From the NCBI GenBank assembly GCA_009778325.1, contig WRJZ01000042.1, positions 1 to 60,537 on the forward strand: 60,537 nt of DNA. The letters are read 5' to 3'. Position numbers and translations under genes: made by a program. This stretch comes from Candidatus Endomicrobium neocapritermitis (lineage in GTDB: Bacteria > Elusimicrobiota > Endomicrobiia > Endomicrobiales > Endomicrobiaceae). The notes below the pieces were generated by a model. The model was given only the letters and a program-made list of their open reading frames with translations. It ran no database searches and was not told the origin of the DNA. Positions 7,335 to 55,984 of the stretch are shown piece after piece (position 1 is the first letter of the stretch; every line of letters begins with the position of its first letter).

Positions 7335-7479
7335 AACGGCAGTTAATAGTTAAGAGTTAATAGATAATAGTTGTTGAATTTCGGCGAAGCCGAAATATAT
7401 TCATAGGTTTTCGCTGAGGCTTTGCCTCTGCAAAAACACCGAAACTATTATCTATTAGTTATTAACTATTAACTGTTAG
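7335..7479 (+). repeat. Intergenic long-hairpin element, two-hairpin core type
   Basis: Left end AACGGCAG directly after the stop codon; right end CTGTTAG. Arms are made of GTTAATAGTTAAG-like units that pair with CTATTAACTATTAAC. The core has a first hairpin TTTCGGC-GAA-GCCGAAA (7381-7397 region), an ATAGG linker and a second hairpin whose tip holds an extra GAGGCTTTGCCTC stem. About 145 bp; no coding capacity seen. Confidence 0.85.
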
Positions 7480-7480
7480 T

Positions 7481-7509
7481 TTGACTTTCTTCTCGTAATT
7501 CGATACAAT
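7481..7509 (+). promoter_or_regulatory. Sigma70-type promoter for the isocitrate dehydrogenase gene
   Basis: TTGACT (7481-7486), 17-base spacer, TACAAT (7504-7509), then about 54 bases of A/T-rich leader before the ATG at 7564. Placed just after the hairpin element, so transcription can restart here. Confidence 0.7.
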
Positions 7510-7563
7510 CTCGTTTTAAAATTCATTGAAAAATAAATATATTTTCATTATAGGAGCATAATC

Positions 7564-8616
7564 ATGGCGCGCAAAATTACGCTTATCCCGGGAGACGGGA
7601 CAGGTCCGGAAATTACGGAAGTTACAGTAAAAGTTGTTGAAGCTACCGGAGTTAAAATTGATTGGGAAATAGCCCATGCCGGCATTGATATTATGGAAAA
7701 AGAAGGCACGCCTCTTCCGCAAAGCACATTGGATTCCATAGCAAAAAATAAAATCGCTTTAAAAGGGCCTATTACAACACCGATTGGAACTGGATTTCGT
7801 TCAGTAAATGTAGCTATAAGAAAAGAGCTTGATCTTTATTCATGCCTCAGACCGTGCAAATCTTATGAAGGCGTAAAATCAAAGTATAATAACATAGATT
7901 TGGTTGTAGTAAGAGAAAATACCGAAGATTTATACGCGGGCGTTGAGTATCCGGAAGATACGGAAGAAGCCAAAAAAATAATAGAAATTTCTAAAAATAA
8001 GATAAGGGAACATTCCGCTATATCCATAAAGCCGATATCCGCTTTCGGAACGGAAAGAATAGTTCGTTTTGCTTTTGAATATGCCGTAGAAAATGACAGA
8101 AGAAAAGTTACCGCCGTAACAAAGGCAAATATTATGAAATGCACTGACGGGCTTTTTTATAAAGTTGCCAGGGAAGTGGCTAAAGATTATGAAGGGAAAA
8201 TCGAGTATGAAGAAAGATTGGTCGACAATATGAGCATGCAGCTTGTACAAAAACCCGAGCTGTATGACGTTTTAGTTTTGCCCAATCTTTACGGAGATAT
8301 TATATCCGACCTTTGCGCGGGCCTTGCAGGCGGGCTTGGCGTTGCTCCCGGAGCGAATTTCGGAAAGGATATAGCCGTTTTTGAGGCTGTGCACGGTTCT
8401 GCTCCGAAATATAAAGGGTTGAACAAAGTCAATCCCACGGCTTTGATACTTTCGGCAAAACTTATGCTTGAACATATCGGCGAAGATGGCGCTGCTTTCA
8501 GGCTTGAAAAAGCCGTGTCGGACGTTATAGCCGAGAAAAAGCATGTCACATATGATTTGGGCGGCGTTGCAGGCACAAAAGAAATGGGGCAGGCGATAAT
8601 TAATAAACTTAAGTAA
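7564..8616 (+). CDS. icd: Isocitrate dehydrogenase, short IDH3-like form
   Basis: A 350-residue beta-decarboxylating dehydrogenase. The isocitrate-type substrate motif is visible (Ser80, Asn82, Arg86, Arg96 in [21 protein letters not shown]), with Arg118, Tyr124, Lys187 (TKAN) and metal-ligand aspartates 221, 245 and 249 ([18 protein letters not shown]). Ser80 followed by VNVAIRKE separates it from isopropylmalate dehydrogenase. The cofactor loop reads [15 protein letters not shown]: Lys282-Tyr283 and Lys288-Val289 match the NADP-binding residues of E. coli Icd instead of the Asp-Ile of NAD enzymes, although the overall form is IDH3-like. It would convert isocitrate to 2-oxoglutarate. It has its own promoter and no other TCA gene beside it. 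Homoisocitrate dehydrogenase is a less likely alternative. Confidence 0.85.
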
Positions 8617-8620
8617 AAGC

Positions 8621-8660
8621 CTCTAAGGACCTTAAAGTCCTTAAAGACATTAAGGACTTT
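8621..8660. repeat. Short palindromic spacer made of AAGGACTTTAA units
   Basis: AAGGACCTTAAAGTCCTTAA and AAGGACTTT pair with one another around ACATT. The same word family (CCTTAAAGTC, AAGGACCTTAAGG) recurs at 37570-37613. It fills the gap between icd and ndk. Confidence 0.7.
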
Positions 8661-8664
8661 AATA

Positions 8665-9102: not shown

Positions 9103-9105
9103 AGT

Positions 9106-9220
9106 AAGGCAGAGTGAAGATTGAAGAGTGAAAAGTGAAGATAAAGAGCGCTTCGCGCGGATATTTAGTGTCGCTGCCGTATCTTCACTCTCAATTCTTC
9201 AATCTTCACTCTGTCGTTAA
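9106..9220 (+). repeat. Intergenic long-hairpin element, GAGTGAAGA arms, unique centre
   Basis: Left end AAGGCAGAGTGAAGATTGAA pairs with TTCAATCTTCACTCTGTCGTT at the right. The centre (about 9140-9184: GAGCGCTTCGCGCGGATATT then TAGTGTCG) is not the usual two-hairpin core. It is nearly the reverse complement of the centre of the element at 30675-30789. The right end abuts the AAAAGGGGAT ribosome-binding site of ackA. Confidence 0.85.
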
Positions 9221-9235
9221 AAAGGGGATGTCATA

Positions 9236-10459: not shown

Positions 10460-10464
10460 GAAAA

Positions 10465-11027: not shown

Positions 11028-11157
11028 AAGGCAGAGAATAGAGTTTAGAGTATAGATATAGAGTTTTTGCTTTGCAAAAACCTGTTAAATAGGTTTCGCC
11101 AAAGGCGAAACACAACATCTATACTCTAATATCTACTATCTATTATCTGTCGTTAAA
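11028..11157 (+). repeat. Intergenic long-hairpin element, two-hairpin core
   Basis: Left AAGGCAGAGAATAGAG and right TATTATCTGTCGTTAAAA. Arms use AGAGTATAGATATAGAG-like units that pair with CTATACTCTAATATCTAC. Core: TTTTTGCTTTGCAAAAA, a CTGTTAAATAGG linker, and TTTCGCCAAAGGCGAAA followed by ACAC. Ends beside the GGAGG of rpmF. Confidence 0.88.
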
Positions 11158-12433: not shown

Positions 12434-13423
12434 ATGAATAAAAAAACAGGCGTAAAAATTTTAGGCACAGGCTCTTATTTTCCGAAAAAAGTTCTTACAA
12501 ATGCCGATTTGGAAAAGATAGTTGAGACCTCTAACGAATGGATTACAACCAGAACCGGCATAAAAGAAAGGCATATTGCCGAAAAAGACGAAGTTACTTC
12601 CGACCTTGCGTATCAGGCTTCTATTGATGCTTTAAAGGCCGCGAATATATCCGCCGAGCAAATAGATTTAATTCTTGTGGCTACAATCACTCCCGACATG
12701 TTATTTCCTTCAACGGCATGCATGCTCCAGACTAAGCTTGGGTTGAAAAATACTCCGGCTTTTGACTTGCTTGCCGCATGCAGCGGATTTATATACGGTC
12801 TTTCAATAGCGAAAGCGTATATTGAATCCGGAATGTACAAAAATATTCTTCTTGTAGGCGCTGAAACGCTTTCCAGAATTACTGATTGGGAAGACAGAAA
12901 TACATGCGTATTGTTCGGAGACGGAGCCGGAGCGATGGTCTTGTCGGCATCGGAAGAAAATGATGATGTTTTATCGGTTTGTCTCGGAGCGGACGGGTCA
13001 TACGCTGATTTACTTAAACAGCCGGGGGGCGGCTCCGCCTGCCCTGCCACTGAGGAAAGCGTAAAAGCTAAGATGCATTACGCGAAAATGGAAGGAAAAG
13101 AAGTATTTAAGGTTGCTGTTACAAAAATGGGACAGGCAGCCGAAAAAGCGCTCGAGACGGCAAAAAAGAAAATTGAAGATATAAAATTATATATCCCTCA
13201 TCAGGCAAATATGAGAATTATTGAAGCGGTCGCGAAAAAATTGGATGTTTCTATGGAAAGAGTATTTGTTAACATCCATAAAACCGGAAATATTTCTTCC
13301 GCCACAACAATAACAGCTCTTGACGAGGCTATAAAAACAGGCAAGCTTACAAAAGGCGATTTGGTTGAAATTGTCGCTTTCGGCGGCGGTTTTACCTGGG
13401 GCGCTGCGGTAATACGAATTTAA
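12434..13423 (+). CDS. fabH: Beta-ketoacyl-ACP synthase III
   Basis: The protein has 329 residues. The Cys-His-Asn triad is visible: Cys116 (LLAACSGFIYGL), His256 (IPHQANMRII) and Asn286 (HKTGNISSAT). The closing FGGGFTWGAAVIRI is typical. It condenses acetyl-CoA with malonyl-ACP to start fatty-acid synthesis. It starts 3 bases after plsX. It ends directly at the hairpin element that precedes fabD. Confidence 0.97.
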   Translation: MNKKTGVKILGTGSYFPKKVLTNADLEKIVETSNEWITTRTGIKERHIAEKDEVTSDLAYQASIDALKAANISAEQIDLILVATITPDMLFPSTACMLQTKLGLKNTPAFDLLAACSGFIYGLSIAKAYIESGMYKNILLVGAETLSRITDWEDRNTCVLFGDGAGAMVLSASEENDDVLSVCLGADGSYADLLKQPGGGSACPATEESVKAKMHYAKMEGKEVFKVAVTKMGQAAEKALETAKKKIEDIKLYIPHQANMRIIEAVAKKLDVSMERVFVNIHKTGNISSATTITALDEAIKTGKLTKGDLVEIVAFGGGFTWGAAVIRI

Positions 13424-13553
13424 CAACAGAGTGAAGAGTTAAAAGTGAAGAGTGAAGATGTCGTGTTTCGGCTTTGCCGAAACTGATTAATAGGTTTTCG
13501 CGAAGCGAAAACACATTATCTCCACTCTTCACTCTTCAATCTTCACTCTTTTC
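13424..13553 (+). repeat. Intergenic long-hairpin element, two-hairpin core
   Basis: Begins AACAGAGTGAAGAGTT at the fabH stop. Arms of GAGTGAAGA units pair over about 32 positions with roughly 28 matches. Core: TTTCGGCTTTGCCGAAA, then TGATTAATAGG, then TTTTCGCGAAGCGAAAACAC. Ends TTTTCTAAAGGA, which holds the ribosome-binding site of fabD. Confidence 0.9.
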
Positions 13554-15236: not shown

Positions 15237-15378
15237 CGGCAGTGAATAGTGAGTAGTTAGTAATGAGTAGTAAACGGCAAGTACAAAATATAGTAAAAAA
15301 TAGTTAAGAAGTTATTGGTTTGAGTTTGTGGATGTGTAGTTTACTACTCACTGCTCACTACTAACTACTAACTAACAA
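15237..15378 (+). repeat. Intergenic long-hairpin element, AGTGAGTAGTTAGTA arms
   Basis: Left CGGCAGTGAATAGTGAGTAG continues directly from the fabG TAA. Right GTTTACTACTCACTGC and CTACTAACTACTAACTAAC pair with it. The centre of about 65 bp (AACGGCAAGTACAAAATATA to TTTGTGGATG) differs from the two-hairpin core and itself starts with AACGGCA, as if one element sits in another. Confidence 0.8.
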
Positions 15379-16909: not shown

Positions 16910-17588
16910 AAGTCTTGAAAAACTTCAAAAGGTTATTGAATACCAGTTCAATAACCTTGAAGTTTTAATGATAGCTTTGACTCATAAATCATACGCAGCC
17001 GAGTCTGGAATACAAATATACAATGAGCGGATGGAATTTCTGGGCGACAGCATTCTGTCCGCTATTGTCGCAGAAAGCCTTTACTACAGATACTCTGACG
17101 AAACGGAAGGAAAACTTTCCCAGTTAAAATCCCAAATAGTGTCGTCTCAGAATTTAAGCGTATGGGCAAAAGAAATTAAGCTCGGCGATTTTATTCTGTT
17201 GGGTAAAAGCGAAGACACAAAAGAAGCGAGGCAGAGGGAAGGTTTGCTGTGCGACGCTTTTGAAGCGTTAGTTTGCGCGGTTTATTTGGACGGCGGTTTT
17301 GAAAACGCGAAAAGAATTGTTTTGAAGTTTCTTGACAAGCAGCAGCAAATAGTTATAACGGATTATAAAAGCAGACTGCAGGAAGCCGCGCAGTCCGAAT
17401 ATAAAGTTTTGCCGGAATATAAAATTTTAAGAGAAATGGGGCCCGACCACGATAAGAATTTTGAAGTGGCGGTTTACGTGAAAGATCAGCTTTTAGGCAA
17501 AGGCGCTGGGCATTCAAAAAAAGAAGCCCAGCAGGAAGCAGCGAAGAAAGCTATGAAAAATATAAAAAAAAGAAAGAGTGAAGATTGA
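16899..17588 (+). CDS. rnc: Ribonuclease III
   Basis: The protein has 229 residues. The RNase III signature NERMEFLGDSILS (residues 42-54, metal ligands Glu46 and Asp50) is followed by a second acidic pair in CDAFEALVCA. The dsRNA-binding domain covers about residues 155-225 (YKSRLQEAAQ, GKGAGHSKKEAQQEAAKKAM). It cuts double-stranded RNA in rRNA and mRNA maturation. The final residues (about RKSED) and the stop codon lie inside the AGAGTGAAGATTGAAGAGTG arm of a hairpin element. The message therefore ends in a long predicted dsRNA stem, which is itself a potential RNase III substrate. Confidence 0.96.
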   Translation: MSNKSLEKLQKVIEYQFNNLEVLMIALTHKSYAAESGIQIYNERMEFLGDSILSAIVAESLYYRYSDETEGKLSQLKSQIVSSQNLSVWAKEIKLGDFILLGKSEDTKEARQREGLLCDAFEALVCAVYLDGGFENAKRIVLKFLDKQQQIVITDYKSRLQEAAQSEYKVLPEYKILREMGPDHDKNFEVAVYVKDQLLGKGAGHSKKEAQQEAAKKAMKNIKKRKSED

Positions 17589-17704
17589 AGAGTGTAGAGT
17601 GGAGATGTTGTGTTTCGGCTTCGCCGAAACCTATTATATGTTTTTGCTTCGCAAAAACTCGTTATCTTCACTTTCCACTCTTCACTTTCCACTCTGTAGT
17701 TAAA
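17574..17704 (+). repeat. Intergenic long-hairpin element overlapping the end of rnc
   Basis: Arms AGAGTGAAGATTGAAGAGTG and CACTCTTCACTTTCCACTCT. Core TTTCGGCTTCGCCGAAA, CCTATTATATG linker, TTTTTGCTTCGCAAAAACTC. Ends TGTAGTTAAAAAGGGG, which provides the ribosome-binding site of the acyl-CoA dehydrogenase. The first ~15 bases are coding for RNase III. Confidence 0.9.
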
Positions 17705-18887: not shown

Positions 18888-18985
18888 CATCCGCAGGATG
18901 TCATCCCCGAGTGTCTTTATCGGGGATCCACGTTAACTGACTAAATAAAAAATGGATACCAGATTACGGATTTTGGGTATGACAA
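18888..18985. repeat. Small inverted-repeat element with TGTCATCCC/GGGTATGACA ends
   Basis: TGTCATCCCCGAG near 18899 and GGGTATGACA ending about 18984 form partial terminal inverted repeats around an internal CCCCGAG...CGGGGAT hairpin (18905-18927) and a GGATCCA...TGGATACC pair. It belongs to a different repeat class from the AACGGCA elements. It fills the acd-etfB gap. Confidence 0.6.
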
Positions 18986-19003
18986 ACACATAAGAGGATG
19001 CAA

Positions 19004-19829: not shown

Positions 19830-21062
19830 ATGGCAAACCAAATATTAGTATCGGCGGAAAAATGCGTAGGCTGTAAAATTTGCGTCGGAGCATGCAATTT
19901 CGGCGCGATTACGATGCAGGAAAGGCCGGAACATCCTAAAAAACAGCCTATTGCCGTTATAGATTTAAATAAATGCGTATTTTGCGGAGCTTGTGTCGAT
20001 GCCTGCAAATTTAAAGCTATTGAAATGAAAAAAGACGCTCCCAGAGAAGGAGTTGATAAAAGCAAGTACAGAGGCGTTTGGGTTTATGCCGAGCAGAGAC
20101 ACGGCGAAATTTCAAGCGTAGTGTACGAGCTTTTAAACGAAGGCGCAAGGCTTGCCAAGCAGCTGGAAGTTCCTTTGAGCGCGGTATTGATTGGTTCCGA
20201 TATTAAAGCAAAAGCGCAGGATTTAATTGAAAGAGGAGCCGACAAAGTTTATATATTTGACGATCCTGTTTTTATCGAATTTCAGGATGACCCGTACGCA
20301 AGCATACTTACCAGACTTATAGAGCAGGAAAAGCCGGAAATAATACTTATGGGCGCGACAAATATAGGACGTTCTTTCGCGTCAAGGGTTGCCGCAAGAA
20401 TACAAACGGGACTTACCGCGGACTGCACGTCTTTAGACGTTGATTTGCAAAACAGAAACCTTCTCCAGACCCGTCCCGCTTTCGGCGGAAATATCATGGC
20501 GACAATTCTTACGCCTAATCACCGTCCGCAAATGGCGACTGTAAGACACAAAGTATTTAAAGAAGCAAAAGTTGAAAAAGGAAGAAAAGGCGAAGTAATT
20601 GAAAATAAAGTCGATGTTTCAACTTTGGTAAACAGGACGAAATTTTTGGGATTCATAAAAGATTCAAGCGCGCACGTAAATCTTGCCGACGCTGACATAA
20701 TAGTTTCAGGCGGCCGAGGTCTTGGCAAAGCCGAAGGCTTTAAACTTATAGAAGAGTTTGCCGAACTTCTCGGCGGGGCTGTAGGTTCGTCAAGAGCTGC
20801 CGTTGATTCAGATTGGATACCTTATTCTCATCAGGTGGGACAAACCGGAAGAACGGTTGCGCCTAAAGTTTATATAGCTTGCGGGATTTCGGGACAGATT
20901 CAGCATATGGTCGGCATGGGTTCATCCGATACGATTATTGCGATAAATAAAGACGCGACATGCCCAATGATGCAGACTGCGACTTATGCTTTGGAAGGCG
21001 ATTTGTATGAAATTATCCCAAGAATTATAAGTGAAATAAAGAAATCACGCTGCGCCGTTTAA
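19830..21062 (+). CDS. etfA: Electron transfer flavoprotein alpha subunit with N-terminal 2[4Fe-4S] ferredoxin domain
   Basis: The protein has 410 residues. The N-terminus carries two [4Fe-4S] motifs, Cys12-15-18-22 (CVGCKICVGAC) and Cys49-52-55-59 (CVFCGACVDAC), then the EtfA domain (residues about 70-410) with SGGRGLGKAEGF, GAVGSSRAAVDSDW and SGQIQHMVGM that bind FAD. Family knowledge: such ferredoxin-fused EtfA subunits are found in CarE and other complexes that couple acyl-CoA reduction to ferredoxin. The TAA stop is the first part of the TAACGGCAATT left end of a hairpin element. The operon is acd-etfB-etfA. Confidence 0.95.
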   Translation: MANQILVSAEKCVGCKICVGACNFGAITMQERPEHPKKQPIAVIDLNKCVFCGACVDACKFKAIEMKKDAPREGVDKSKYRGVWVYAEQRHGEISSVVYELLNEGARLAKQLEVPLSAVLIGSDIKAKAQDLIERGADKVYIFDDPVFIEFQDDPYASILTRLIEQEKPEIILMGATNIGRSFASRVAARIQTGLTADCTSLDVDLQNRNLLQTRPAFGGNIMATILTPNHRPQMATVRHKVFKEAKVEKGRKGEVIENKVDVSTLVNRTKFLGFIKDSSAHVNLADADIIVSGGRGLGKAEGFKLIEEFAELLGGAVGSSRAAVDSDWIPYSHQVGQTGRTVAPKVYIACGISGQIQHMVGMGSSDTIIAINKDATCPMMQTATYALEGDLYEIIPRIISEIKKSRCAV

Positions 21063-21285
21063 CGGCAATTACGAATTACAAATTACGAATTACGAATCAA
21101 CAGCAACCCCTCACCCTCTTGCTTCGCAAGTCCCAAGTAGTCAAGCTACTTCCGGGGCGCTCACATCTCGCGCCCGCTCGTGACTCGTGCTCCTTACTCG
21201 TCGCACACTCGCCCCGCAAGGGGCGAGGGAAAATACTTTTTTGTCGTTGATTCGTAATTCGTAATTTGTAATTCGTAATTGATTT
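21061..21285. repeat. Large hairpin element with perfect 35-bp terminal arms
   Basis: The arm at 21067-21101, made of AATTACGAATTAC-like units, is the exact reverse complement of 21246-21280. The interior (about 21102-21245) is itself palindrome-rich: TTGCTTCGCAAG, AAGTAGTCAAGCTACTT, CTCGCCCCGCAAGGGGCGAG and a CACCCTC/GGCGAGGG pairing. The same left arm and inner start (ACCTCGTCC, TCTTGCTTCGCAAG) reappear at 60466-60537. No open frame of note inside. Confidence 0.9.
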
Positions 21286-27219: not shown

Positions 27220-27346
27220 GAAAAGTGCAAAGTTCAGAGTTCAAAGTTCAAATAATGTGTTTCGCCTTTGGCGAAACTTACTAATAGGTTTTCACAAAGC
27301 AAAAACTCCAAATTTGAACTTTACACTTTGAACTTTGTTGTTAAAA
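27220..27346 (+). repeat. Intergenic long-hairpin element, AAAGTTCAAAGTTCA arms
   Basis: AAAAGTGCAAAGTTCAGAGT pairs with ACTTTACACTTTGAACTTTG. Core TTTCGCCTTTGGCGAAA, TTACTAATAGG linker, TTTTCACAAAGCAAAAACTC. Ends TTGTTAAAAAGG at the hypE ribosome-binding site. Confidence 0.88.
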
Positions 27347-27355
27347 AGGTATATT

Positions 27356-28354
27356 ATGAAAATTACAATGGCTCACGGCGCGGGCGGAAACGCTTCCAAA
27401 GAGCTGATAAACAAACTTTTTAAAAAAAATTTTTCAAATAAAGCTCTAAACCCGATGGATGACGGAGCTGTTTTGAAAATCGGAAATGTGAAGTTAGCAT
27501 TTTCAACGGACACATTTGTAATAAATCCTGTCTTTTTTAAAGGCGGTGATATAGGCAAGCTTGCCGTGTGCGGAACTGTCAACGATATTTCTATGATGGG
27601 CGCAAAACCGGCGGCAATGTCGGCCGCGGCCGTTATTGAAGAAGGATTTTTATTTAAAGAACTTGAAAAAATAACGCTTTCTATGGCAAAACAGGCAAAA
27701 GAAGCGGGAATCAGCATAGTTACCGGAGATACCAAAGTAGTAAAAAAAGGCGAAACCGACGGGATTTTTATTAATACAAGCGCGATAGGAATTATTGACG
27801 CAAAAGTAAATCTTTCCGGAGCAAACGCCAAAGCCGGAGATACAATAATAATAAGCGGAAATATCGCTGAGCACGGCGCTGCAATAATGCTTGCCAGAAA
27901 TAATTTGGGTTTTAAGTCGTCAATTAAAAGCGACTGCGCGTGCCTTAACGTATTAGCGCAGAACGTTTTGAAAACATGTCCGGAAATACACGTGATGAGA
28001 GATCCGACCCGCGGCGGCGTTGCCGCTGCCTTAAATGAAATAGCTGAAAGTTCCAAAGCCGGAGTTATAATTGAACAAAACGAAATACCTGTTGCAAATA
28101 ATGTTTCGGCGTTTTGCAGAATATTGGGGTTAGACCCGTTATATATGCCTAATGAAGGGAAGATGATTTCAATACAAAAAGAAGCCGATACAAAAAAAGT
28201 TCTATCGGCTTATAAAAAACACGCTTTAGGCAAAAATGCGCGCGTTATCGGCAAAATTGTCGCAAATCCAAAAGGAGTTTGGATTAAAACCGTTACGGGA
28301 AATTTGAGAAGAGTTTTAAATATTGATACTGAACAACTGCCGAGAATCTGTTAA
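27356..28354 (+). CDS. hypE: Hydrogenase maturation factor HypE
   Basis: The protein has 332 residues from ATG 27356, which follows AAAAAGGT. MAHGAGGNAS near the N-terminus, DDGAVLKIG, FSTDTFVINPVFFKGGDIG, GDTKVVKKG and RDPTRGGVAAALNEIA are typical. The protein ends ELPRIC-like (EQLPRIC) with the terminal Cys332 that HypF carbamoylates and HypE dehydrates to thiocyanate. The stop TAA is continuous with the CGGCAG left end of the next element. It completes hypAF-C-D-E; hypB is absent from the window. Confidence 0.96.
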   Translation: MKITMAHGAGGNASKELINKLFKKNFSNKALNPMDDGAVLKIGNVKLAFSTDTFVINPVFFKGGDIGKLAVCGTVNDISMMGAKPAAMSAAAVIEEGFLFKELEKITLSMAKQAKEAGISIVTGDTKVVKKGETDGIFINTSAIGIIDAKVNLSGANAKAGDTIIISGNIAEHGAAIMLARNNLGFKSSIKSDCACLNVLAQNVLKTCPEIHVMRDPTRGGVAAALNEIAESSKAGVIIEQNEIPVANNVSAFCRILGLDPLYMPNEGKMISIQKEADTKKVLSAYKKHALGKNARVIGKIVANPKGVWIKTVTGNLRRVLNIDTEQLPRIC

Positions 28355-28474
28355 CGGCAGAGAATAGTTAGTAGTGAGTAGTTAGTAGTTGTTGAATTTC
28401 GGCGAAGCCGAAATCTATTATAGGTTTTCGCTATGCGAAAACACCAAAACTACTCACTACTAACTGTCGTTAAA
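28353..28474 (+). repeat. Intergenic long-hairpin element, AGTTAGTAGTGAGTAG arms
   Basis: AGTTAGTAGTGAGTAG on the left pairs perfectly over 16 or more bases with CTACTCACTACTAACT on the right. Core TTTCGGCGAAGCCGAAA, TCTATTATAGG linker, TTTTCGCTATGCGAAAACAC. It runs from the hypE TAA to TGTCGTTAAAAGGGG before the next gene. Confidence 0.92.
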
Positions 28475-30674: not shown

Positions 30675-30789
30675 CCTGCAGAGTTAAGAGTGAAAAGTGG
30701 AGAGTGGAGATACGGCAACGACACTAAATATCCGCGCGAAGCGCTCATTATCTTCACTCTCCACTTTTCACTCTTCACTCTGCCTTTAA
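30675..30789 (+). repeat. Intergenic hairpin element with centre inverted relative to 9106-9220
   Basis: Left arm CTGCAGAGTTAAGAGTGAAA and right arm TTTTCACTCTTCACTCTGCC. The centre (ACACTAAATATCCGCGCGAA, then GCGCTC) is almost the exact reverse complement of the centre of the element between ndk and ackA. Confidence 0.88.
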
Positions 30790-32659: not shown

Positions 32660-32780
32660 AAAGACAGAGTGAAGAGTGAAAAGTGGAGAGTGGAGATATT
32701 GAATTTCGGCTTCGCCAAAATCTATTAATAGGTTTTCGCGTAGCGAAAACACTTTATCTTCACTCTTCACTCTGCCTTTA
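32660..32780 (+). repeat. Intergenic long-hairpin element, GAGTGAAGA arms
   Basis: CAGAGTGAAGAGTGAAAAGT pairs with TTATCTTCACTCTTCACTCTG. Core TTTCGGCTTCGCCAAAA, TCTATTAATAGG linker, TTTTCGCGTAGCGAAAACAC. Ends TCTGCCTTTAATG. Confidence 0.9.
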
Positions 32781-35800: not shown

Positions 35801-36276
35801 AAAAGACTTTTGATATAGTCAGAGGCAATTTTAAAGAGCTTTATAGAAAGCTTTTCGGCGGCGGCGAAGCGGATCTTATGCTTACCGACGAAAATAATCT
35901 TTTGGAAAGCGGCGTGGATATTTACGCGCAGCCTCCGGGAAAAAAGCTTCAAAATATTTCTCTCTGCTCCGGAGGGGAAAAAGCATTAACGGCCGTAGCT
36001 CTGCTTTTTGCTTTCTTTATGGTAAAACCTTCTCCTTTCTGTATTCTTGACGAAGTTGACGCGCCTTTGGATGACGCTAACGTCGGAAGATATATAGCGA
36101 TGGTAAGAGAGTTTGCGTCTAAATCGCAGTTTCTGGTTGTCACGCATAATAAGCGTACAATGGAAATGGCCGATATTCTTTACGGAGTAACAATGGAAGA
36201 GCAGGGCGTATCCAAAATTATTTCGGTAAGAATGAGCAAACAGGAAGAAGAATTAACGGCAATTAACAATGAATAA
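32803..36276 (+). CDS. smc: Chromosome segregation protein SMC
   Basis: The protein has 1157 residues. Walker A GPNGCGKS (31-38), a long coiled coil, hinge around residues 500-650 (DQQDPIRSAIRAVLNLGAA, VIVQGGGKTSFEKP), second coiled coil, then the ABC signature LCSGGEKALTAVALLFA and Walker B FCILDEVDAPLDD near residues 1045-1090. It forms the condensin-like DNA-loop-extruding dimer with ScpA/ScpB, which are not in the window. The ATG lies at 32803. The last six residues (TAINNE) and the TAA are coded by the AACGGCAATTAACAATGAA left arm of a hairpin element. Confidence 0.97.
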   Translation: MYLKKVEVCGFKSFADRTLLGFEKGISGIIGPNGCGKSNISDAIRWCLGEQRAKSMRSSQMQEVIFGGTQTRATTGMAEVSLTFDNSQNILPIDYSEVTITRRLFRSGESEYFINKTQCRLKDIKDMFLDTGIGSEGYSIIEQGKVDFLTTAKPEDRRELFEEAAGVAKYKVRREETLRRLEKIDNDMGRLSDALAIHKQQITALDIAAKKAKQYKKYQEELAKYEVAALVQHITYGNNEIDRLKKELDPKIKEFETNNTAVNQLDADIQDMRLTLDEKNEQYVSLNRELSEIKTQIGIADQIIQHSTQRETEIRTEQERLAQEMVINREKVAQYEAQLNSINTDDGSLAAETDNLEQIYKEKERQYNSVKSKLFEIEARETAIRSRLSDLESEKEAQINSKAEFSETKIHLDAETASLQRIIARLESEIEPTNQEIAAMEADLAEAGKSLLSFEAKKEEINKTVSENEAKLDELESNLSQLKENLASNESRIATLQEFDQQDPIRSAIRAVLNLGAARGPVSSLIDSDDDKDELIASALGEKLNYLVCDTASKAEEAIKFLEDNGLCRLSFIVEEKIPDGQFSSAMGLPMGFTELIKYIRYSPENEKLIKFICANTIVSGSKVYANVIVQGGGKTSFEKPVLIEEQIKKLQEKSNEIRQSVVSVQAEIDNINEYQVNSRLEKERFGFDAVKIKTQLESKHAQIEEKRNDIKNTVEEINKHKEEINLKSSELGSFNEKIAVFDDQLARIDDEENRLYDELKNIENDIFAVRQEEETVAPLMMDARSAWDKKASEMENKQKGQQYILDNIANIKQQIEYATNKTAENETKLSELLTTQETETVKIQQHYEEQAQKEALIQVSLNDRQKLQDDIDDKTNAWHEMRGKVDDLNVEMNAMQVDLKNFEYQRSDLEKRLTESCGKPYEEIKNDFDGVEVNHEEINRIKRKMESLGSVNLAAQEEYDALEQRYNFLLTQQQDLLKAKDDLHEVIKKINTSTIENFKKTFDIVRGNFKELYRKLFGGGEADLMLTDENNLLESGVDIYAQPPGKKLQNISLCSGGEKALTAVALLFAFFMVKPSPFCILDEVDAPLDDANVGRYIAMVREFASKSQFLVVTHNKRTMEMADILYGVTMEEQGVSKIISVRMSKQEEELTAINNE

Positions 36277-36386
36277 TGAATAATTAATAATTGTGGAGTT
36301 TCGCCTTTGGCGAAACATATTAATAGGTTTTTGCGAAGCAAAAACACAATAATTGTTAATTATTCATTATTCATTGTTAATTGTTT
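36254..36386 (+). repeat. Intergenic long-hairpin element overlapping the smc 3' end
   Basis: AACAATGAATAATGAATAAT on the left pairs perfectly, within a 28-base match, with ATTATTCATTATTCATTGTT on the right. Core TTTCGCCTTTGGCGAAA, CATATTAATAGG linker, TTTTTGCGAAGCAAAAACAC. The first ~20 bases are codons of smc. Confidence 0.93.
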
Positions 36387-40229: not shown

Positions 40230-40234
40230 ATTTA

Positions 40235-40416
40235 AGTCTTCGGGGAAGGTGAATGGGGCGGATGCTCCGTATTCCTTACCGGCAGTAATGGAAATGAAGT
40301 CGGATTGCAATGACGAATTCCAAAAGCCTGCGACTCCGCCTGAACTAAGTTTCAAATAAGCGGACTGAATCCGTGAAATTCGGATGCCGACGGTATAGTC
40401 CGGATGAAAGAAGATG
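40235..40416 (+). promoter_or_regulatory. FMN riboswitch (RFN element)
   Basis: Canonical RFN segments in order: GTCTTCGGGGAAGGTGAAT at the 5' side, ACCGGCAGTAATGG, AAGCCTGCGA, GTGAAATTCGGATGCCGACG, GTATAGTCCGGATGAAAGAA and closing GAAGATG. The 5' and 3' ends (GTCTTC/GAAGAT) form stem P1. It is followed by an expression platform hairpin ending in T's just before ribD. Confidence 0.97.
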
Positions 40417-40437
40417 ATTTAAAATAATAGTGTTTAT

Positions 40438-40473: not shown

Positions 40474-41550
40474 ATGCATAAAAAATACATGGACATGGCA
40501 ATACAGCTTGCTTTGCGGGGAAAGTATAACGTATATCCGAATCCTCAAGTAGGGTGTATTATAGTAAAAAATAATAAAGTTGTCGGAAAAGGCTGGCACG
40601 AATACTTTGGCGGCAATCATGCCGAAATAAACGCCTTGGCTGATGCCGGCGGCAATACCGAAGGAGCAGATTTATATGTTACGCTCGAGCCGTGCAACAG
40701 TTTTGGGAAGCGCCCTCCGTGCACGCAGGCGATAATTAAAGCCGGCATAAAACGGGTGTTTTTTGCGGTAAAAGATCCCAATGTTTCAAAAAGCCGCGAA
40801 ACTCTTAAGAAAAGCGGCATTGAAGTGAAAAGCGGGATTTTACAAAATAAGGCAAAAAAACTCGTAAAAGAATATTTTGCGCACTTAAAAACAAAACCGA
40901 AGGTTTCAGTGAAAGCCGCGATGACCCTTGACGGTAAAATAGCTACGTACGATTATGATTCAAAGTGGATAACTTCGGAACAATCAAGAAACTTTGTCCA
41001 TAAATTAAGAAGCGGCTATGATGCGATTATTGTCGGCACAAACACGGCTTTAAAGGATAATCCGAATCTTACTTCACACGGAAAAGGGCGCAACCCGGTG
41101 AGAGTTGTTATTGACGCGCGGTTAACAATTCCAAAAGACTACAATTTATTTGACGGTTCGGCTCCGACTGTAATTATTTATGACGAAATAATAAAGAACG
41201 TGCCGAAACATTTGCTTAAAGATAACATAATACCTGCTCCGTTAAATATCTTTGCGGCAAAAAAAGATTTTAATGTTATAGTAAATAAGCTTAATACTTT
41301 ATCGTTAAAAACAATTTTAATTGAAGGCGGAAGCGAAATTATATCTTCTGCTTTGTTTTCAAAATCTGTCGATGATATTTATTTTTTTATTGCACCGAAA
41401 ATTATCGGAGGAAAAAACGCGGTATCGGTTACGGGCGGAGCCGGAATAAAAAAAATTAAGGATGCCGTCAAAGTTAAAAGCATGAAAGTAAAAAAAATAG
41501 GACAGGATTTACTTATAACCGGAAAAATAGGAACGGCAAGGAATAAATAA
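40474..41550 (+). CDS. ribD: Bifunctional riboflavin deaminase/reductase RibD
   Basis: The protein has 358 residues. The deaminase domain (1-145) has the zinc site His49-x-Glu51 (NHAEINALAD) and Cys74/Cys83 (PCNSFGKRPPC); the usual His after PC is Asn. The reductase domain (146-358) shows VSVKAAMTLDGKIAT, KWITSEQSRNFVHKLR and LIEGGSEIISS. It converts the GTP-derived diaminopyrimidine to 5-amino-6-ribitylamino-uracil phosphate. It starts the riboswitch-controlled operon ribD-ribE-ribBA. Confidence 0.97.
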   Translation: MHKKYMDMAIQLALRGKYNVYPNPQVGCIIVKNNKVVGKGWHEYFGGNHAEINALADAGGNTEGADLYVTLEPCNSFGKRPPCTQAIIKAGIKRVFFAVKDPNVSKSRETLKKSGIEVKSGILQNKAKKLVKEYFAHLKTKPKVSVKAAMTLDGKIATYDYDSKWITSEQSRNFVHKLRSGYDAIIVGTNTALKDNPNLTSHGKGRNPVRVVIDARLTIPKDYNLFDGSAPTVIIYDEIIKNVPKHLLKDNIIPAPLNIFAAKKDFNVIVNKLNTLSLKTILIEGGSEIISSALFSKSVDDIYFFIAPKIIGGKNAVSVTGGAGIKKIKDAVKVKSMKVKKIGQDLLITGKIGTARNK

Positions 41551-43476: not shown

Positions 43477-43605
43477 AACGGCAATGATTAATGGTTAATG
43501 ATAAATGATAAATTATTGTGCGAGGCTTTGCCTCGCTTGTTAATAGGTGCGCAAAGCGCACTCCATAATTAAGCATTTATCATTAACCATTAACCATTAA
43601 AAAAG
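43477..43605 (+). repeat. Intergenic long-hairpin element, GGTTAATGATAAATG arms
   Basis: AATGGTTAATGATAAATG pairs perfectly (18 bases) with CATTTATCATTAACCATT. Core GCGAGGCTTTGCCTCGC, TTGTTAATAGG linker, GTGCGCAAAGCGCACTC: a fully different but still self-complementary version of both core hairpins. Ends TTAAAAAAGGGG at the ribH ribosome-binding site. Confidence 0.92.
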
Positions 43606-43614: not shown

Positions 43615-44082
43615 ATGAAAGTAATTAACGGTCAGTTGAAAGCGGAAGGAAAAAAATTTGCGTTAGTCGTTTCAAGGTTTAATGAGTTCATAACCAACAA
43701 GCTTATCGGCGGCGCGGAAGATATGCTTAAAAGACACGGCGCGGCGGATAATGATATTTCATTATTCTGGGTTCCGGGAGCTTTTGAAATTTCCGCTACG
43801 GCAAAAAAGATTGCGGAAAGCGGAAAAGTTGACGCAGTGATTTGCCTCGGCTGCGTTATCAGAGGGGCGACTCCTCATTTTGATTATGTGTCTGCCGAAG
43901 TTTCAAAAGGCGTGGCTTCCGTGGGAATGCAGAGCAAAGTTCCGGTAATTTTCGGAGTTTTGACAACTGATACTATTGAACAGGCTATTGAAAGAGCCGG
44001 AACAAAATCAGGAAACAAAGGCGCGGATGCCGCAGTTTCAGCTATTGAAATGGTAAGCCTTTATTCGCAAATTAACAATTAA
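43615..44082 (+). CDS. ribH: 6,7-dimethyl-8-ribityllumazine synthase
   Basis: The protein has 155 residues. [40 protein letters not shown] (catalytic His) and [17 protein letters not shown] are canonical. It makes the lumazine substrate of RibE. The last residues (QINN) and the TAA are inside the AATTAACAATTAACAAATAA left arm of a hairpin element. Confidence 0.98.
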
Positions 44083-44194
44083 CAAATAACAATTTACAAT
44101 TATGGAGTTTCGCGAAGCGAAACCTGTTAATAGGTTTCGGCTTTGCCGAAACACCGACATTGTTAATTATTAATTGTTATTTGTTAATTGTCTT
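44069..44194 (+). repeat. Intergenic long-hairpin element overlapping the ribH 3' end
   Basis: CAATTAACAAATAACAATT pairs perfectly with AATTGTTATTTGTTAATTG. Core TTTCGCGAAGCGAAA, CCTGTTAATAGG linker, TTTCGGCTTTGCCGAAACAC. Confidence 0.92.
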
Positions 44195-44621: not shown

Positions 44622-44622
44622 A

Positions 44623-44731
44623 GACGGAAGTTTAGCAGCTCGGAAGCTCAGAAGTTCAGTAACGACAACAACAAAGCCTTTGTCTTTGCTGAGCTTCAGA
44701 ACTTCCGAGTTGCTGAGCTTCTAAACAGGTT
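44623..44731 (+). repeat. Intergenic hairpin element, CAGCTCGGAAGCTCAGAAG arms
   Basis: AGCTCGGAAGCTCAGAAGTT pairs with AACTTCCGAGTTGCTGAGCTT. Centre AACGACAACAACAAAGCC and CTTTGTCTTTG resembles the centres at 10505 and 51515. Confidence 0.78.
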
Positions 44732-46072: not shown

Positions 46073-46077
46073 TATAA

Positions 46078-46195
46078 GTAGTGTCATTCTGAACTTGTTT
46101 CAGAATCTTGTTGTTGTGTTTTTAATCTTGATAATGTTCTAACTACTATATCCTGAAACAAGTTCCAAGCTAAGCTTGTTCAGGATGACAGCAAA
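46078..46195. repeat. Inverted repeat of the GTCATTCTGAACTTGTTTCAG class
   Basis: GTGTCATTCTGAACTTGTTT (about 46081) and its imperfect complement CCTGAAACAAGTTCC plus AAGCTTGTTCAGGATGAC (ending about 46191). A repeat class distinct from the AACGGCA elements, with GTCAT/ATGAC ends. Confidence 0.75.
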
Positions 46196-46207
46196 AAAGG
46201 TTTAACA

Positions 46208-48856: not shown

Positions 48857-49205
48857 CTTGACAACAAATAACAATTGGGTTTCTCGAAAAACCCTATTTG
48901 GTAGTGTCATTGCAAGGAAAAACGAAGTCTTGCCGAAGCAATCTAGACATTAAGACTATCTCCGGAAAACTAATGGAAACGACATTTTTATTGTTTGGAT
49001 TGCCGCGCCGCTTTCAGCGTCTCGCAATGACGGCAAAGACGGTTTTTCGAGAAACCCAATAAGTAATAACAATTATTGAATTTCGGCCCCCGATTAAGAC
49101 ATTCGAGGATAAACTCCGCCGAAATCTATTAATAGGTTTTCGCTTCGCGAAAACACCAAAATTATTAATTATTACTTGTTATTTATTAATTGCTGTTTGT
49201 TGACT
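48857..49205. repeat. Nested intergenic elements (three layers)
   Basis: Outer element: ACAACAAATAACAATT (48861) and ATTATTACTTGTTATT with TGTTTGTTG (to about 49203), with a core TTTCGG...GCCGAAA, CTATTAATAGG, TTTTCGCTTCGCGAAAACAC. First guest: a unit bounded by TTGGGTTTCTCGAAAAACCC (48875) and GGTTTTTCGAGAAACCCAA (49051-49069). Inside it is a GTCATTGCAAGG...CTCGCAATGAC inverted repeat (48905-49031). Second guest: CCCCCGATTAAGACATTCGA... in the tip of the first core hairpin (49087-49117), a word also found at 57873. Confidence 0.85.
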
Positions 49206-51473: not shown

Positions 51474-51590
51474 TAAAGGCAGAAGCTAAGATGATAGGAA
51501 GTTATGAAGATAGGTAACGGCAAAGACGAAACGAATTTTGTTTCTCTTATCCTCTTATCATCCTGCCCTCTTATCTTCTTCTAAAAAGGA
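51474..51590 (+). repeat. Intergenic hairpin element, GATAGGAAGTTATGAAGATA arms
   Basis: AAGGCAGAAGCTAAGATGAT and GAAGATAGG pair with CTCTTATCATCCTGCC and CTTATCTTCTTC. Centre AACGGCAAAGACGAAACG...TTTTGTTTCTC. It separates two subunits of one transporter. Ends TTCTAAAAAGGA. Confidence 0.75.
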
Positions 51591-52444: not shown

Positions 52445-52446
52445 GA

Positions 52447-52573
52447 ACGGCAATTAACAATTAATAATTAACAAGTAATAATTATTGTGTTTTTGCTTTG
52501 CAAAAACTTATTAATATGTTTCGCTTACGCGAAACTCCTACATTGTTAATTATTAATTATTAATTGTTAATTG
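52447..52573 (+). repeat. Intergenic long-hairpin element, CAATTAACAATTAATAATTAA arms
   Basis: CAATTAACAATTAATAATTA pairs with TAATTATTAATTGTTAATTG. Core TTTTTGCTTTGCAAAAAC, TTATTAATATG linker, TTTCGCTTACGCGAAACTC. The right end AATTGAGG supplies the ribosome-binding site of the next gene. Confidence 0.92.
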
Positions 52574-53602: not shown

Positions 53603-53625
53603 CGAATTACGAATCTAACGGCAGT
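53580..53625 (+). repeat. Solo left arm of an AATTACGAA-type element at the GGQ gene 3' end
   Basis: AGCAATTACGAATTACGAAT then GACGAATTACGAATCTAACG without right partner before nadE. Codes the last residues of the upstream protein. Confidence 0.82.
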
Positions 53626-53640
53626 TTTTTGGGAGAATAA

Positions 53641-55173
53641 ATGAAAATAGCAATTGCGCAGATAAATACTATAGCAGGAAATATAAAGTATAATTCGTCT
53701 AAAATTAAAGAGTATGCAGCCTCGGCAAAAGAAAACGGCGCTGATTTAGCCGTGTTTCCGGAGCTGTCTTTGCCGGGAGGTTTTGCCGGAGATTTATATT
53801 TAAGAAAGGATTTTTTGAAAAGCTGCGAGCAAGAGTTAAATCTTCTTGCCAAAGAATTGGAAATTCCCGCGGTTTTGGGAAGTTCTTACATGGGAGAGAA
53901 CGCCGTAATTTATATAGATAAAAAACAGCCGGAGCCTATGTCTTTTAAAACATTGTTCGGAAGGGAAAAAAAGTATTTTAACGGGAATGATTTACAGACG
54001 GGCATTAACGGTTTTTCCTGCTGTATATATTCAGGCGCTAAAGAGCTTGAACAATCTATTAAAAAAGCCGCGGAGCTTGCGGCTGATACGCTTTTGGTTT
54101 TGGCAAATGAGCCGTTTTATATCGGCGTAATCGAAGAGCTTACGGAAGAGATTGCCGAATATGCCAAAAATTTTTCAATAAATATAATTTTTGTAAACGG
54201 AGTAGGCGCGCAGGACGGGCTGGTGTCTTTCGGCTCAAGTTTTGCCGTAAACAAATCTGGATTTGTCGAAGCGTACGCAAAACAGTTTAAAGAAGATTTA
54301 ATATTTGCGGATTTGACTTTGAATACAAAAATGCAAAGAGAAGAGAGCCCAAAGGAAAAACAGGTTTATGACGCTTTGGTTTTGGGGCTGAAAGATTACG
54401 CGGATAAAAACGGGTTTAAAAAATTTGTTCTCGGGATTTCCGGCGGAGCGGATTCCGCTTTAGCCGCCGTAATTGCTAAAGACGCTTTCGGCGCGTCCAA
54501 TGTAACGGGAATTTTTATGCCTTCGGAATTTACTTCCCGGCGTTCGCGCGATGATGCCGGACTTTTGTGTAAAATGAATAATATCAGACTTTTGGATATA
54601 CCTATTAATAATATATTCAAATCTTTTAAAAGCGCTCTTTTAAACACTTTTAAAGGCGTAAAAACGGATGTTACGGAAGAAAATCTTCAGTCGCGCATAC
54701 GCGGCATGCTGCTGATGGCGTATTCAAATAAATTTAACGCTTTGGTTATGACTGCCGGCAACAGATCGGAAATAGCCGCGGGATACTGCACTCTTTACGG
54801 AGACTCGGCTGGAGGATATGCCGTTATCTGCGATTTGCCGAAGTCATACTTGTATACGCTGTGCGGATGGCGCAATTCCATCTCAGAAGTTATACCTGAA
54901 AGTATTTTAGAAAGAGAGCCTACCGCTGAACTAAGGGAAAACCAGAAAGATTCGGATTCTTTGCCGGAGTATGATGTTCTTGACGGAATTATAGATAATT
55001 TTACGGATTCTTTTTCTGGAGAAACGGAAGTTGTTTTAAGCGAGCAGGAAAAGCAGATTTTTAAAATGATAAGCTCTGCGGAATATAAAAGGCGTCAGCT
55101 GCCGCTCGGAACAAAATTATTAAAACATTCTTTCAGAGATATTCGTCTTCCGGTGACAAATGGATATAAATAA
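53641..55173 (+). CDS. nadE: NAD synthetase with N-terminal nitrilase-like glutaminase domain
   Basis: The protein has 510 residues. The N-terminal domain (1-235) is nitrilase-like with FPELSLPGG (Glu) and FGREKKYFN (Lys region). The third residue, usually Cys in an ICED or ICYD motif, is not recognisable: the place reads SCCIYSGAK. The C-terminal domain (about 236-510) has the P-loop GISGGADSALAAVIA, TAGNRSEIAAGYCTLYGD and LPEYDVLDGII. It amidates nicotinate adenine dinucleotide. The glutaminase half may be weakened, so ammonia could be the nitrogen source. Overlaps radC by 14 bases. Confidence 0.92.
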   Translation: MKIAIAQINTIAGNIKYNSSKIKEYAASAKENGADLAVFPELSLPGGFAGDLYLRKDFLKSCEQELNLLAKELEIPAVLGSSYMGENAVIYIDKKQPEPMSFKTLFGREKKYFNGNDLQTGINGFSCCIYSGAKELEQSIKKAAELAADTLLVLANEPFYIGVIEELTEEIAEYAKNFSINIIFVNGVGAQDGLVSFGSSFAVNKSGFVEAYAKQFKEDLIFADLTLNTKMQREESPKEKQVYDALVLGLKDYADKNGFKKFVLGISGGADSALAAVIAKDAFGASNVTGIFMPSEFTSRRSRDDAGLLCKMNNIRLLDIPINNIFKSFKSALLNTFKGVKTDVTEENLQSRIRGMLLMAYSNKFNALVMTAGNRSEIAAGYCTLYGDSAGGYAVICDLPKSYLYTLCGWRNSISEVIPESILEREPTAELRENQKDSDSLPEYDVLDGIIDNFTDSFSGETEVVLSEQEKQIFKMISSAEYKRRQLPLGTKLLKHSFRDIRLPVTNGYK

Positions 55174-55852
55174 CAATTCAAAACCGCATTATTTCGGACA
55201 CAGAAGCCGCATGAAAGACAAATTTCTTGCTTCGGGCTTTGACGGTTTTGCCGATTATGAGATTTTGGAATTCGCTCTTTTCTTTGCGATAGAAAGAATT
55301 GACGTAAAACCTTTGGCAAAAGAGCTTATAAAAAAGTTCGGAAGCGTAAAACAGGTTTTGGATGCGGACTTCGAAGAACTGATGAAATTTCCGGGACTGT
55401 CGCGTCACAGCGCGGTATTTTTGACTTTTTTAAGGGAAATGTCTGGATATTATTCTTATTTGGATATTAAATCGCCTCAATCGCTTGGCTCTCCGGAGGC
55501 AGTTGTCGATTATTTAATTACGGTATTAAGCGGAGAAAAAATTGAAAAATTTTACGTTGTTTTGCTTGACGCCGGCAATAAAGTTATAGAAAGCAAAGAA
55601 ATAGAAAGCGGGACAGTTAATAAGTCGATAGTTATGCCCAGAAAAATAGCCGAGATTGCCCTGACAAACAAAGCGTCAGCCGTAATAATAGCGCACAATC
55701 ATCCGGGCGGCACGATGAAACCAAGCCAGCATGATATTGACGCGACTGCCGCTGTTAAAAAAGCTTTAAAAGCGTTAGACATAAGCCTTTTAGATCATGT
55801 AATAGTGTCAGGAAATAAATATTTGAGTTTTAGAGAGTATAATTTAATATAA
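55160..55852 (+). CDS. radC: RadC/DUF2466 JAB1-type protein
   Basis: The protein has 230 residues. HhH-like N-terminal region (1-105, with LMKFPGLSRHSAVFL) and an Mpr1-like metal-protease fold with IAHNHPGGTMKPSQHDID (His-x-His and Asp ligands). The family name is historical; its biochemical role is unsettled. It overlaps nadE by 14 bases. It ends at TAA just before an element. Confidence 0.93.
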   Translation: MDINNNSKPHYFGHRSRMKDKFLASGFDGFADYEILEFALFFAIERIDVKPLAKELIKKFGSVKQVLDADFEELMKFPGLSRHSAVFLTFLREMSGYYSYLDIKSPQSLGSPEAVVDYLITVLSGEKIEKFYVVLLDAGNKVIESKEIESGTVNKSIVMPRKIAEIALTNKASAVIIAHNHPGGTMKPSQHDIDATAAVKKALKALDISLLDHVIVSGNKYLSFREYNLI

Positions 55853-55854
55853 TA

Positions 55855-55984
55855 TAACGACAATTAACAAATAACAATTAATAATGAACAATGTAGGAGT
55901 TTCGCGAAAGCGAAACCGAATTAATAGATTTTTGCGAAGCAAAAATACAATAATTATTAACTGTTAATTGTTATTTGTTAATTG
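55855..55984 (+). repeat. Intergenic long-hairpin element, CAATTAACAAATAACAATTAA arms
   Basis: CAATTAACAAATAACAATTA pairs with TAATTGTTATTTGTTAATTG. Core TTTCGCGAAAGCGAAA, CCGAATTAATAG linker, TTTTTGCGAAGCAAAAATAC. Ends before GGGAGGG of the next gene. Confidence 0.92.

Follow-up and report, generated by a model that had tools for sequence, protein, structure and literature searches.

How do the two arms of an intergenic hairpin stay complementary when the arm sequence itself differs from copy to copy? This question is raised by 13 gaps between genes in a stretch of DNA from Candidatus Endomicrobium neocapritermitis (contig WRJZ01000042.1, below called the window, 60,537 nucleotides (nt), one of the 54 contigs of a 2.38 Mb genome). 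Endomicrobia are termite-gut bacteria. Judged from their sequences, the structures in these gaps are inserted units with two inverted arms, in which words of 7 or 8 nt are repeated in tandem, and with an interior that can be exchanged. A single gene, for the four-helix-bundle protein IVP (S23p, PF05635), fills this interior in relatives, whereas in the window its place is taken by an inverted pair of hairpins similar to repetitive extragenic palindromes (REPs), or by another short sequence. The new observation is that each arm is a tandem run of heptads or octads, inverted on the other side, and that arms of the same kind flank IVP genes in several phyla. With a probability of about 0.6, the window elements are non-autonomous copies of a mobile hairpin element resembling the intervening sequences (IVSs) of 23S rRNA.

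Structure and insertion of the window elements

All 13 gaps listed in a first-pass annotation were inspected by reading, and all show the plan it described: an arm, a hairpin, a linker, a second hairpin, and the complementary arm. The elements are as follows.

7335..7479, + strand: AGTTAAT-type arms; hairpin 2 of the core holding an extra nested hairpin
11028..11154, - strand: GAGAATA/GAGTTTA arms; hairpin order reversed
13422..13549, + strand: GAGTGAA arms
17570..17701, + strand: GAGTGAA arms; stop codon of the upstream open reading frame (ORF) inside the left arm
27221..27342, + strand: AAGTTCA arms
28353..28471, + strand: AGTTAGT/AGTGAGT arms
32660..32779, + strand: GAGTGAA/GAGTGGA arms; upstream of an SMC-like gene
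36255..36384, + strand: AATTAAC/AATGAAT arms; end of the SMC-like ORF, final codons and stop, supplied by the left arm
43477..43598, + strand: GGTTAATG arms; G+C-rich core stems
44067..44192, + strand: AATTAAC arms
48861..49201, + strand: AATAAC-type arms; left arm interrupted by another repeat, hairpin 1 by about 30 nt
52446..52573, - strand: AATTAAC arms; hairpin order reversed
55856..55984, + strand: AATTAAC/AAATAAC arms

At the centre of each element, two short hairpins stand inverted to one another on either side of CTATTAATAG, in the order stem-CTAT-TA-ATAG-stem. However, the plan is less uniform than was claimed. In the 48857 element about 30 nt are inserted in hairpin 1 and the aligned arm beside the core has only 12 nt, the 7335 element contains an extra hairpin nested in hairpin 2, and the core stems of the 32660 and 27220 elements have mismatches. 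The arms of the 13 elements align over 12-35 nt. The longest perfect runs measure 9-28 nt and reach 16 nt in 7/13 elements, instead of the 16-28 nt initially given. Among the inverted repeats of the window, 16 have scores of at least 16 (10 of them listed elements) and 11 have scores of at least 20 (7 listed elements); no inverted repeat reached either level in 20 Markov-1 resamples of the window. The 11028, 17574 and 48857 elements score below 16, their arms being more mismatched or interrupted. The RNA folds of the 36255 and 28353 elements have energies of -59.9 kcal/mol (z = -13.4) and -51.3 kcal/mol (z = -9.5), respectively.

The elements start at or near the stop codon of the upstream gene; at 17574 and 36254 this ORF ends within the arm. 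The closest matches of the SMC-like protein are from metagenome-assembled genomes of Endomicrobia (91% and 87%).

The arms are tandem words with some variation, mirrored on the opposite side. The words have either 7 nt (GAGTGAA, AATTAAC, AAGTTCA, AGTTAGT, AATTACG and others) or 8 nt (GAAGCTTA-like). Several word sets are indeed present, each paired inside its element, as had been proposed. The outer ends frequently carry the motif A[AC]G[AG]CA ... TG[CT]C[GT]T. In a set of 42 cores, A[AC]G[AG]CA occurs in the outer 40 nt of 41/84 arms, compared to 6.1% of random 40-mers, and 32/42 elements have the motif at one end at least. This set was collected by a script demanding perfect stems and is thus biased; it is also the basis of the arm pairing, orientation and alignment counts given below.

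Orthologous gaps were compared in the relatives G001, G002, G004, L009 and L010. The gap sequences of L010 and G002 are identical, and the two were taken together as a single genome; L009, too, may be part of one of the G genomes. For 11 of the 13 elements the orthologous gap could be read in one or more relatives. Each of these 11 sites is empty in at least one of them, with at most 64 nt or with overlapping flanking genes: 11028 (21 nt in G004, 35 nt in G002), 13422 (48 nt in G001, 52 nt in G004), 17574 (8 nt in G004, 10 nt in G002), 27220 (genes overlapping by 11 nt in G004 and G002), 28353 (25 nt in G004, 26 nt in G002), 32660 (44 nt in L010), 36254 (2 nt in L009, 4 nt in L010), 43477 (18 nt in G002, with 148-175 nt of other sequence in G004 and G001), 44069 (64 nt in G004), 52446 (11 nt in G002, with 92-99 nt of other sequence in G004 and G001) and 55856 (29 nt in G001). 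No relative was readable at the 7335 and 48857 gaps. At three gaps G001 has an element of a different word: GGTAATA at 11028, GAGTGAA at 27220, and GAGAATA, without a core, at 44069. Copies of the 28353 element with 91-94% similarity are found at four other places of the host genome. By this comparison, the elements are lineage-specific inserted units.

The search for the core with model R1 (E<=1e-4) in 60 genomes gave matches in eight: at least 91 in the host, 90 in G001, 73 in G003, 79 in G031, 60 in G023, 14 in G028, 5 in G014 and 1 in G004. These counts are lower bounds, the number of candidates scored in each genome being limited to 91. None were listed in the other 52 genomes with this model and stricter filters. 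A phylum-wide core was therefore rejected; among the 60 genomes it is confined to two genera of the family. Some core types are under-counted by this search, since they were misaligned and omitted from alignment A2, which retains 29/42 cores and is itself ascertained by pairing. The omitted types are the G+C-rich cores, two cores whose two hairpins are alike, and most of the ATTAAC-type cores with a shorter stem 1.

IVP genes between word arms

The route to the IVP gene was a search of plasmids with the AATTACG arm, which gave 9 records; a search of plasmids with the whole core element gave no match. In cyanobacterial plasmids, one AATTACG match lies under a gene annotated as "four helix bundle protein" and a second one just before such a gene, and the word stands beside an IVP gene in at least two places. 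The IVP matches the structure PDB 2rld (E 5e-31). In a search of 198 genomes of Elusimicrobiota, 56 had genes of the family PF05635 (23S_rRNA_IVP, S23p); the 14 control genomes had none. The host has two, L153 and L154, both on contigs other than the window.

For each IVP gene, the flank score was defined as the best inverted match between the 200-nt flanks, with ORFs, here and in the orientation counts, taken from a simple ORF caller. The cut in Elusimicrobiota, 15.2, is the 99th percentile of mismatched flanks. The 54 IVP genes considered came from 30 loci (the best per genome), 20 chosen stretches (mostly Endomicrobium relatives) and the host's two; L202 yielded no ORF, and two ORFs were dropped because of short flanks. 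The cut is reached by 33/54 IVP genes and by 3/81 other genes of the same loci (odds ratio 41, p 6e-14), control genes with flanks shorter than 150 nt being excluded. In a 460-kb sample of the host genome, 10/381 genes reach it.

IVP genes of plasmids were scored as well. The sample consists of 19 of 26 records (H14, H15, H17, H19, H30, H31 and H35 were left out): 14 from Cyanobacteriota, two from Chloroflexota, and one each from Bacteroidota, Spirochaetota and Bacillota. Inverted arms flank 17/19 IVP genes, or 15/17 without L155 and L208, which coincide with the heptad matches that led to IVP and are not independent, compared to 2/160 control genes taken from three plasmids. Both IVP genes below the cut are cyanobacterial, and both arm-positive control genes lie in a stretch annotated as integrase/transposase. 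Against mismatched pairs of flanks the plasmid signal is weaker, with 8/19 genes above the 99th percentile, partly because the Nostoc loci share words. Taking both samples, flanks match at the cut in inverted orientation in 50/73 cases and on the same strand in 10/73.

The arm words differ among IVP loci (TTCGTAA, TTCGCAA, GAAGTCG, TTCAAAA, TTTTAGA, GTGATTA, CAGTTAC and others). Within one genus, words are shared by the two kinds of element: core elements also use those of two IVP genes of G001, namely L190 with GAGTGAA arms (outer end TTTTAACGG followed by CAGAGTG) and L189 with GATAATAGAGAATA arms. The end motif of the window elements was observed in 12/74 IVP-element arms (26-nt windows at the outer edge), compared to an expected 3.3%; at the inner edge only weak k-mers were found.

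In the host, the L154 gene is flanked by GAGTTTA/GAGTATA arms and lies between the genes for tRNA-Arg and tRNA-His. The same spacer has 55 nt in G004, and 163, 162 and 306 nt in G031, G023 and G014, respectively, with no IVP match listed there. IVP genes lie between co-directional tRNA genes also in L161 and L165, beside one tRNA gene in L159, and near the transfer-messenger RNA (tmRNA) gene in L196; of these five loci, only L154 and L165 reach the arm cut. L161 and L165 come from two families of one order, and in both the IVP gene is situated between the genes for the same tRNA pair (Cys, Val), which could be a shared old insertion or a preferred site. Of the 71 loci fetched around IVP genes, 60 were searched for RNA genes; none of them has rRNA, and six have tRNA or tmRNA genes. 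Elsewhere, IVP genes stand between adjacent genes of one system, such as cas2/cas1 (opposite strand), hsdS/hsdR and DUF1156/Swt1 (same strand). The cas loci, L214 and L215, are in two Nostocales plasmids, where the IVP gene is opposite in strand to the flanking cas2 and cas1 and the arm scores are 29.5 and 12.5.

The interior is exchangeable in the window as well. At least eight further gaps (9103, 10445, 15237, 21063, 21654, 30675, 44622, 51473, all by reading) contain arms around other centres, and hence the arms and the centre are separable. The following arms-only relatives were delimited.

9106..9218: GAGTGAA arms, different centre
15237..15375 or 15395: by reading
21061..21285: AATTACG arms, 41 nt, 95% complementary, around other repeats
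30678..30786: GAGTGAA arms
44622..44730: octad arms
51476..51586: octad arms

Two of these gaps are short in relatives, the 44622 gap having 16 nt in G001 and G004, and the 51476 gap 12, 14 and 11 nt in G001, G004 and G002, respectively. By eye, the elements at 9106-9218 and 30678-30786 have one centre in opposite orientations (AGCGCTTCGCGCGGATATTTAGTGTCG), which looks like another exchangeable interior. The 15237 gap and its counterpart in G001 (L138) have partly similar interiors and different arm words, again by eye; this may be a replacement of words in place. Other repeat families were noticed on reading at 48874-49060, 18888-18997, 46073-46207 and 57753-58263, some of them nested in arms. 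Their features are GGGTTTCTC...GAGAAACCC ends, GTGTCATTGC..., CCCCGA...CGGGGA, and CATCAT blocks.

No description of inverted heptamer arms around IVP genes was found in the titles and beginnings of abstracts of the open-licence literature, which is not proof of absence. In the parts seen of a 2024 paper on Endomicrobia genomes (PMC11257099), terms for repeats occur only in methods and references concerning CRISPR and insertion sequences.

Pairing of the core stems and arms

The core stems vary with compensating changes, as the first-pass annotation had stated. This was observed in a set of 43 cores from the window, 400 kb of its genome and the fetched relatives; it was anchored only by the inner stem halves and the linker, and thus is less biased than the 42-core set. 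Both stems are paired at 7/7 positions in 34/43 cores. The variable positions of stem 1 are GG/CC in 23 cores, GC/GC in 17 and other combinations in three (one of which pairs), and those of stem 2 are TCG/CGA in 22, TTG/CAA in 13 and other combinations in eight (one pairs). In alignment A2, 99.6% of cells pair and two-sided changes are seen in 5/16 pairs, a value not reached in any of 500 shuffles.

The arms behave differently. The score between the left and right arms of one element averages 18.6, compared to 4.8 for random pairs (standard deviation 1.35; 42 elements, all families), but this excess is mostly a consequence of family membership. Within the two largest families, the two arms of an element fit each other no better than they fit the arms of other elements (ATTAAC, n=13, p=0.47; GAGTGAA, n=10, p=0.51), and the same holds for the small families AGTTCA (n=3, p=1), GGTTAATG (n=3, p=0.83) and GTTTGG (n=4, p=1). 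The exception is the GTTAATA family with its mixed sub-words, where same-element arms do pair better (n=9, p=0.0005); stratified by family, the value for all 42 elements is p=0.04. The proposed copy-to-copy covariation of arms thus holds between word families, and was not found inside the two largest ones. The suggestion that structure is kept, or made by copying, is partly supported: the short core stems do have compensatory pairs, but copy-by-copy compensation of the arms gained no support in the large families of the window. Re-copying of an arm at each insertion is unsupported for these copies; those of the ATTAAC and GAGTGAA families have probably spread as whole units.

Arm copying is supported, at the level of sequence comparison, by the IVP-carrying relatives rather than by the large families of the window. 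There are 53 pairs of arm-bearing loci with IVP identity of at least 60%; the pairs share loci and are not independent. The left-right similarity within a locus (the smaller of the two) has a median of 22, and the similarity between loci a median of 8.5; the latter is lower than the former in 51/53 pairs. As far as can be read from these pairs, the words change between related IVPs, whereas the left and right arms stay matched. However, related words (between-locus score of at least 15) are shared in 13/53 pairs, and so the turnover is not universal. In L211, compared to L209 (88% IVP identity), a 25-nt insert is present at mirrored places of both arms. Two independent insertions being unlikely, the simple reading is that one arm was copied from the other.

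The core had been described as always following the orientation of the flanking genes. This is not the case. Among the 42 cores, 29 lie between co-directional ORFs, four between convergent and two between divergent ones, and seven are at the edge of a stretch, the background being 341/411 co-directional neighbouring pairs. In the 29 co-directional gaps, the core has the same orientation as the genes in 15 cases and the opposite one in nine, and five are undefined. In the window itself, the 11028 and 52447 elements have their hairpins in reversed order. The orientation of the arms is uninformative, since an arm pair is a palindrome with the same 5' arm on both strands.

Origin of the elements

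The earlier statement that no named family has this plan can be retained in part. A search of the window against Rfam at gathering scores gave no family for the elements, its sole match being an FMN (flavin mononucleotide) riboswitch aptamer at 40232-40419, upstream of the ORF at 40474 (76 bits). On the other hand, the core resembles REP dimers, or REPINs (REP doublets forming hairpins), and the arms with IVP resemble the 23S rRNA IVS, although neither definition is fully matched.

The IVSs of 23S rRNA, known for instance in Coxiella and Leptospira, have complementary termini forming a long stem. In Coxiella (PMC4990558), the IVS has an S23p ORF, a 28-bp terminal stem, excision by RNase III, and tandem heptamers (GACAGAT) before the ORF. 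The same source describes the S23p of Xanthomonas as a toroidal homopentamer, and calls the origin of IVSs and the role of S23p/IVP unclear more than 25 years after their discovery. The window elements likewise have complementary termini and a long stem (only 12 nt beside the core in 48857), and the related arm-flanked elements contain the IVP ORF; in Coxiella, tandem heptamers are found beside such an ORF. The differences are that the elements considered here occupy gaps between protein genes and some tRNA operons instead of rRNA, and that the window copies, on reading too short for an S23p/IVP ORF, have the two-hairpin core instead. The best class by analogy is an IVS-type element with a REPIN-like centre; membership is unproven, given the position of the window copies outside rRNA and their lack of the ORF.

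Heptamers as such have been noticed in other bacteria. In Nostoc, Elhai and co-workers reportedly described in 2008 small structured repeats within tandem heptamers, with nested insertions and compensatory changes. These would be similar to the elements in that small structured repeats are embedded in heptamer runs. The TAACTGA heptamers of Beggiatoaceae are abundant, intergenic and tandem, as are the arms. However, in the parts of the description available to us (PMC4679880) the repeats lie before start codons and are all direct but for one, and no link to IVP was found there.

The following mechanism could account for these observations. IVP may be the element's own mobility factor, acting in trans on units with folded arms and recognising their shape or ends, not the word. 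In a fold-back intermediate one arm would be copied from the other, which would restore matching pairs, and slippage would make and replace the 7- and 8-nt words; the words would then turn over while pairing is kept. In the transcript the hairpin may be cut by RNase III, as in the 23S rRNA IVS, so that insertions after stop codons and between genes or tRNAs would be tolerated. Reverse transcription seems less likely than a DNA intermediate that uses host replication, or than a transposase supplied in trans. It is disfavoured in the host, whose genome gave no match in a search with RVT_1.

Several points weigh against the reading of the window elements as IVS-like mobile units, in addition to the missing excess of same-element pairing in the two largest families, the incomplete word turnover, and the dependence and weaker null in the plasmid sample. 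Of the only two IVP genes of the host, L153 has no detectable arms, and 21/54 Elusimicrobiota IVP genes are below the cut. G002 has an IVP gene with arms and no core match, and G004 has one core and no IVP match. The antiparallel IVP genes in the two cas loci mean that co-transcription with the neighbours is not general. No clean target-site duplication was read at the element edges; the junction of element and host is blurred, because the relatives are too diverged and the edges are A/T-rich. We know of no catalytic domain or site in IVP. The mobility is read from sequence comparison, and IVP as its driver is what we infer.

One alternative is that the two-hairpin core is a REPIN, moved by a REP-associated tyrosine transposase (RAYT, Y1 type), and that the arms are palindromes preferred as targets. 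Indeed, the two hairpins of the core are inverted, bear CTAT/ATAG as inner tags and have short tails, as in head-to-head REP dimers; the core is also intergenic and present in tens of copies. Some REP dimers are reported inside palindromes (PMC3733652); the GTAG or CGTC tag of the definition given there does not occur in the core, which has ATAG and the linker CTATTAATAG. The host has three Y1_Tnp genes (L087, L088 and L089, on contigs C52, C47 and C44), and an AATTACG arms-only element lies just upstream of the RAYT-like L088. However, the arms stand on just one flank of L088; L087 and L089 lie between inverted GTCAAGGGGACG...-type repeats of their own, a separate REP system; and on reading the core was seen in none of the three 3.3-kb loci. 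In GTAG-type REPINs the transposase genes would be flanked by the same repeat, whereas two of the three host genes have other repeats and the third a one-sided arms-only element. Furthermore, arms of tandem words with an exchangeable interior are not a feature of REPINs: the arms occur without the core and with IVP, and the empty sites lack arms and core together. We consider this explanation rather unlikely.

Still less probable are ordinary miniature inverted-repeat transposable elements (MITEs), in which the arms would be the terminal inverted repeats of a conventional transposon and its transposase would work in trans. Lineage-specific insertion, a conserved end motif, the many copies and the terminal inverted repeats all fit, and the flank test also flagged a transposon stretch. 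However, termini of one transposase would be expected to share sequence, whereas arm sequences vary from family to family and among many related IVPs. No arm-bounded transposase gene was noticed in the loci read, where ORFs were not systematically typed. The IVP elements do share words and ends with the window elements, but IVP is not known as a transposase.

Equally doubtful is local construction of the hairpins by slippage and quasi-palindrome correction, with selection for protection or separation of mRNAs and IVP as a passenger: the tandem words, the strong RNA folds and the positions between stop codon and ribosome-binding site agree with it, but against it stand the absence of whole units from relatives, the 28353-like copies (91-94%) at four other host places, the conserved ends, and the IVP association in several phyla.

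The IVS-like reading can be extended tentatively, at somewhat less than even odds, to a class of mobile elements spread over at least six phyla and not described as such in the literature searched. Its members would have a four-helix-bundle gene between inverted word arms that can be replaced wholesale and are recopied by fold-back in each round; non-autonomous copies would fill operon gaps by dozens, and the 23S rRNA IVSs would be the members that landed in rRNA. If this is true, the pairing is inherited while the arm sequence is free, and the elements offer a case of inverted arms that stay paired although their sequence is exchanged. Should genes for one and the same protein lie between word arms in the intergenic DNA of several phyla, these elements would form one large body of data for comparison and a mobile system open to testing; the scattered intergenic heptamer repeats of cyanobacteria and other bacteria may then share one cause.

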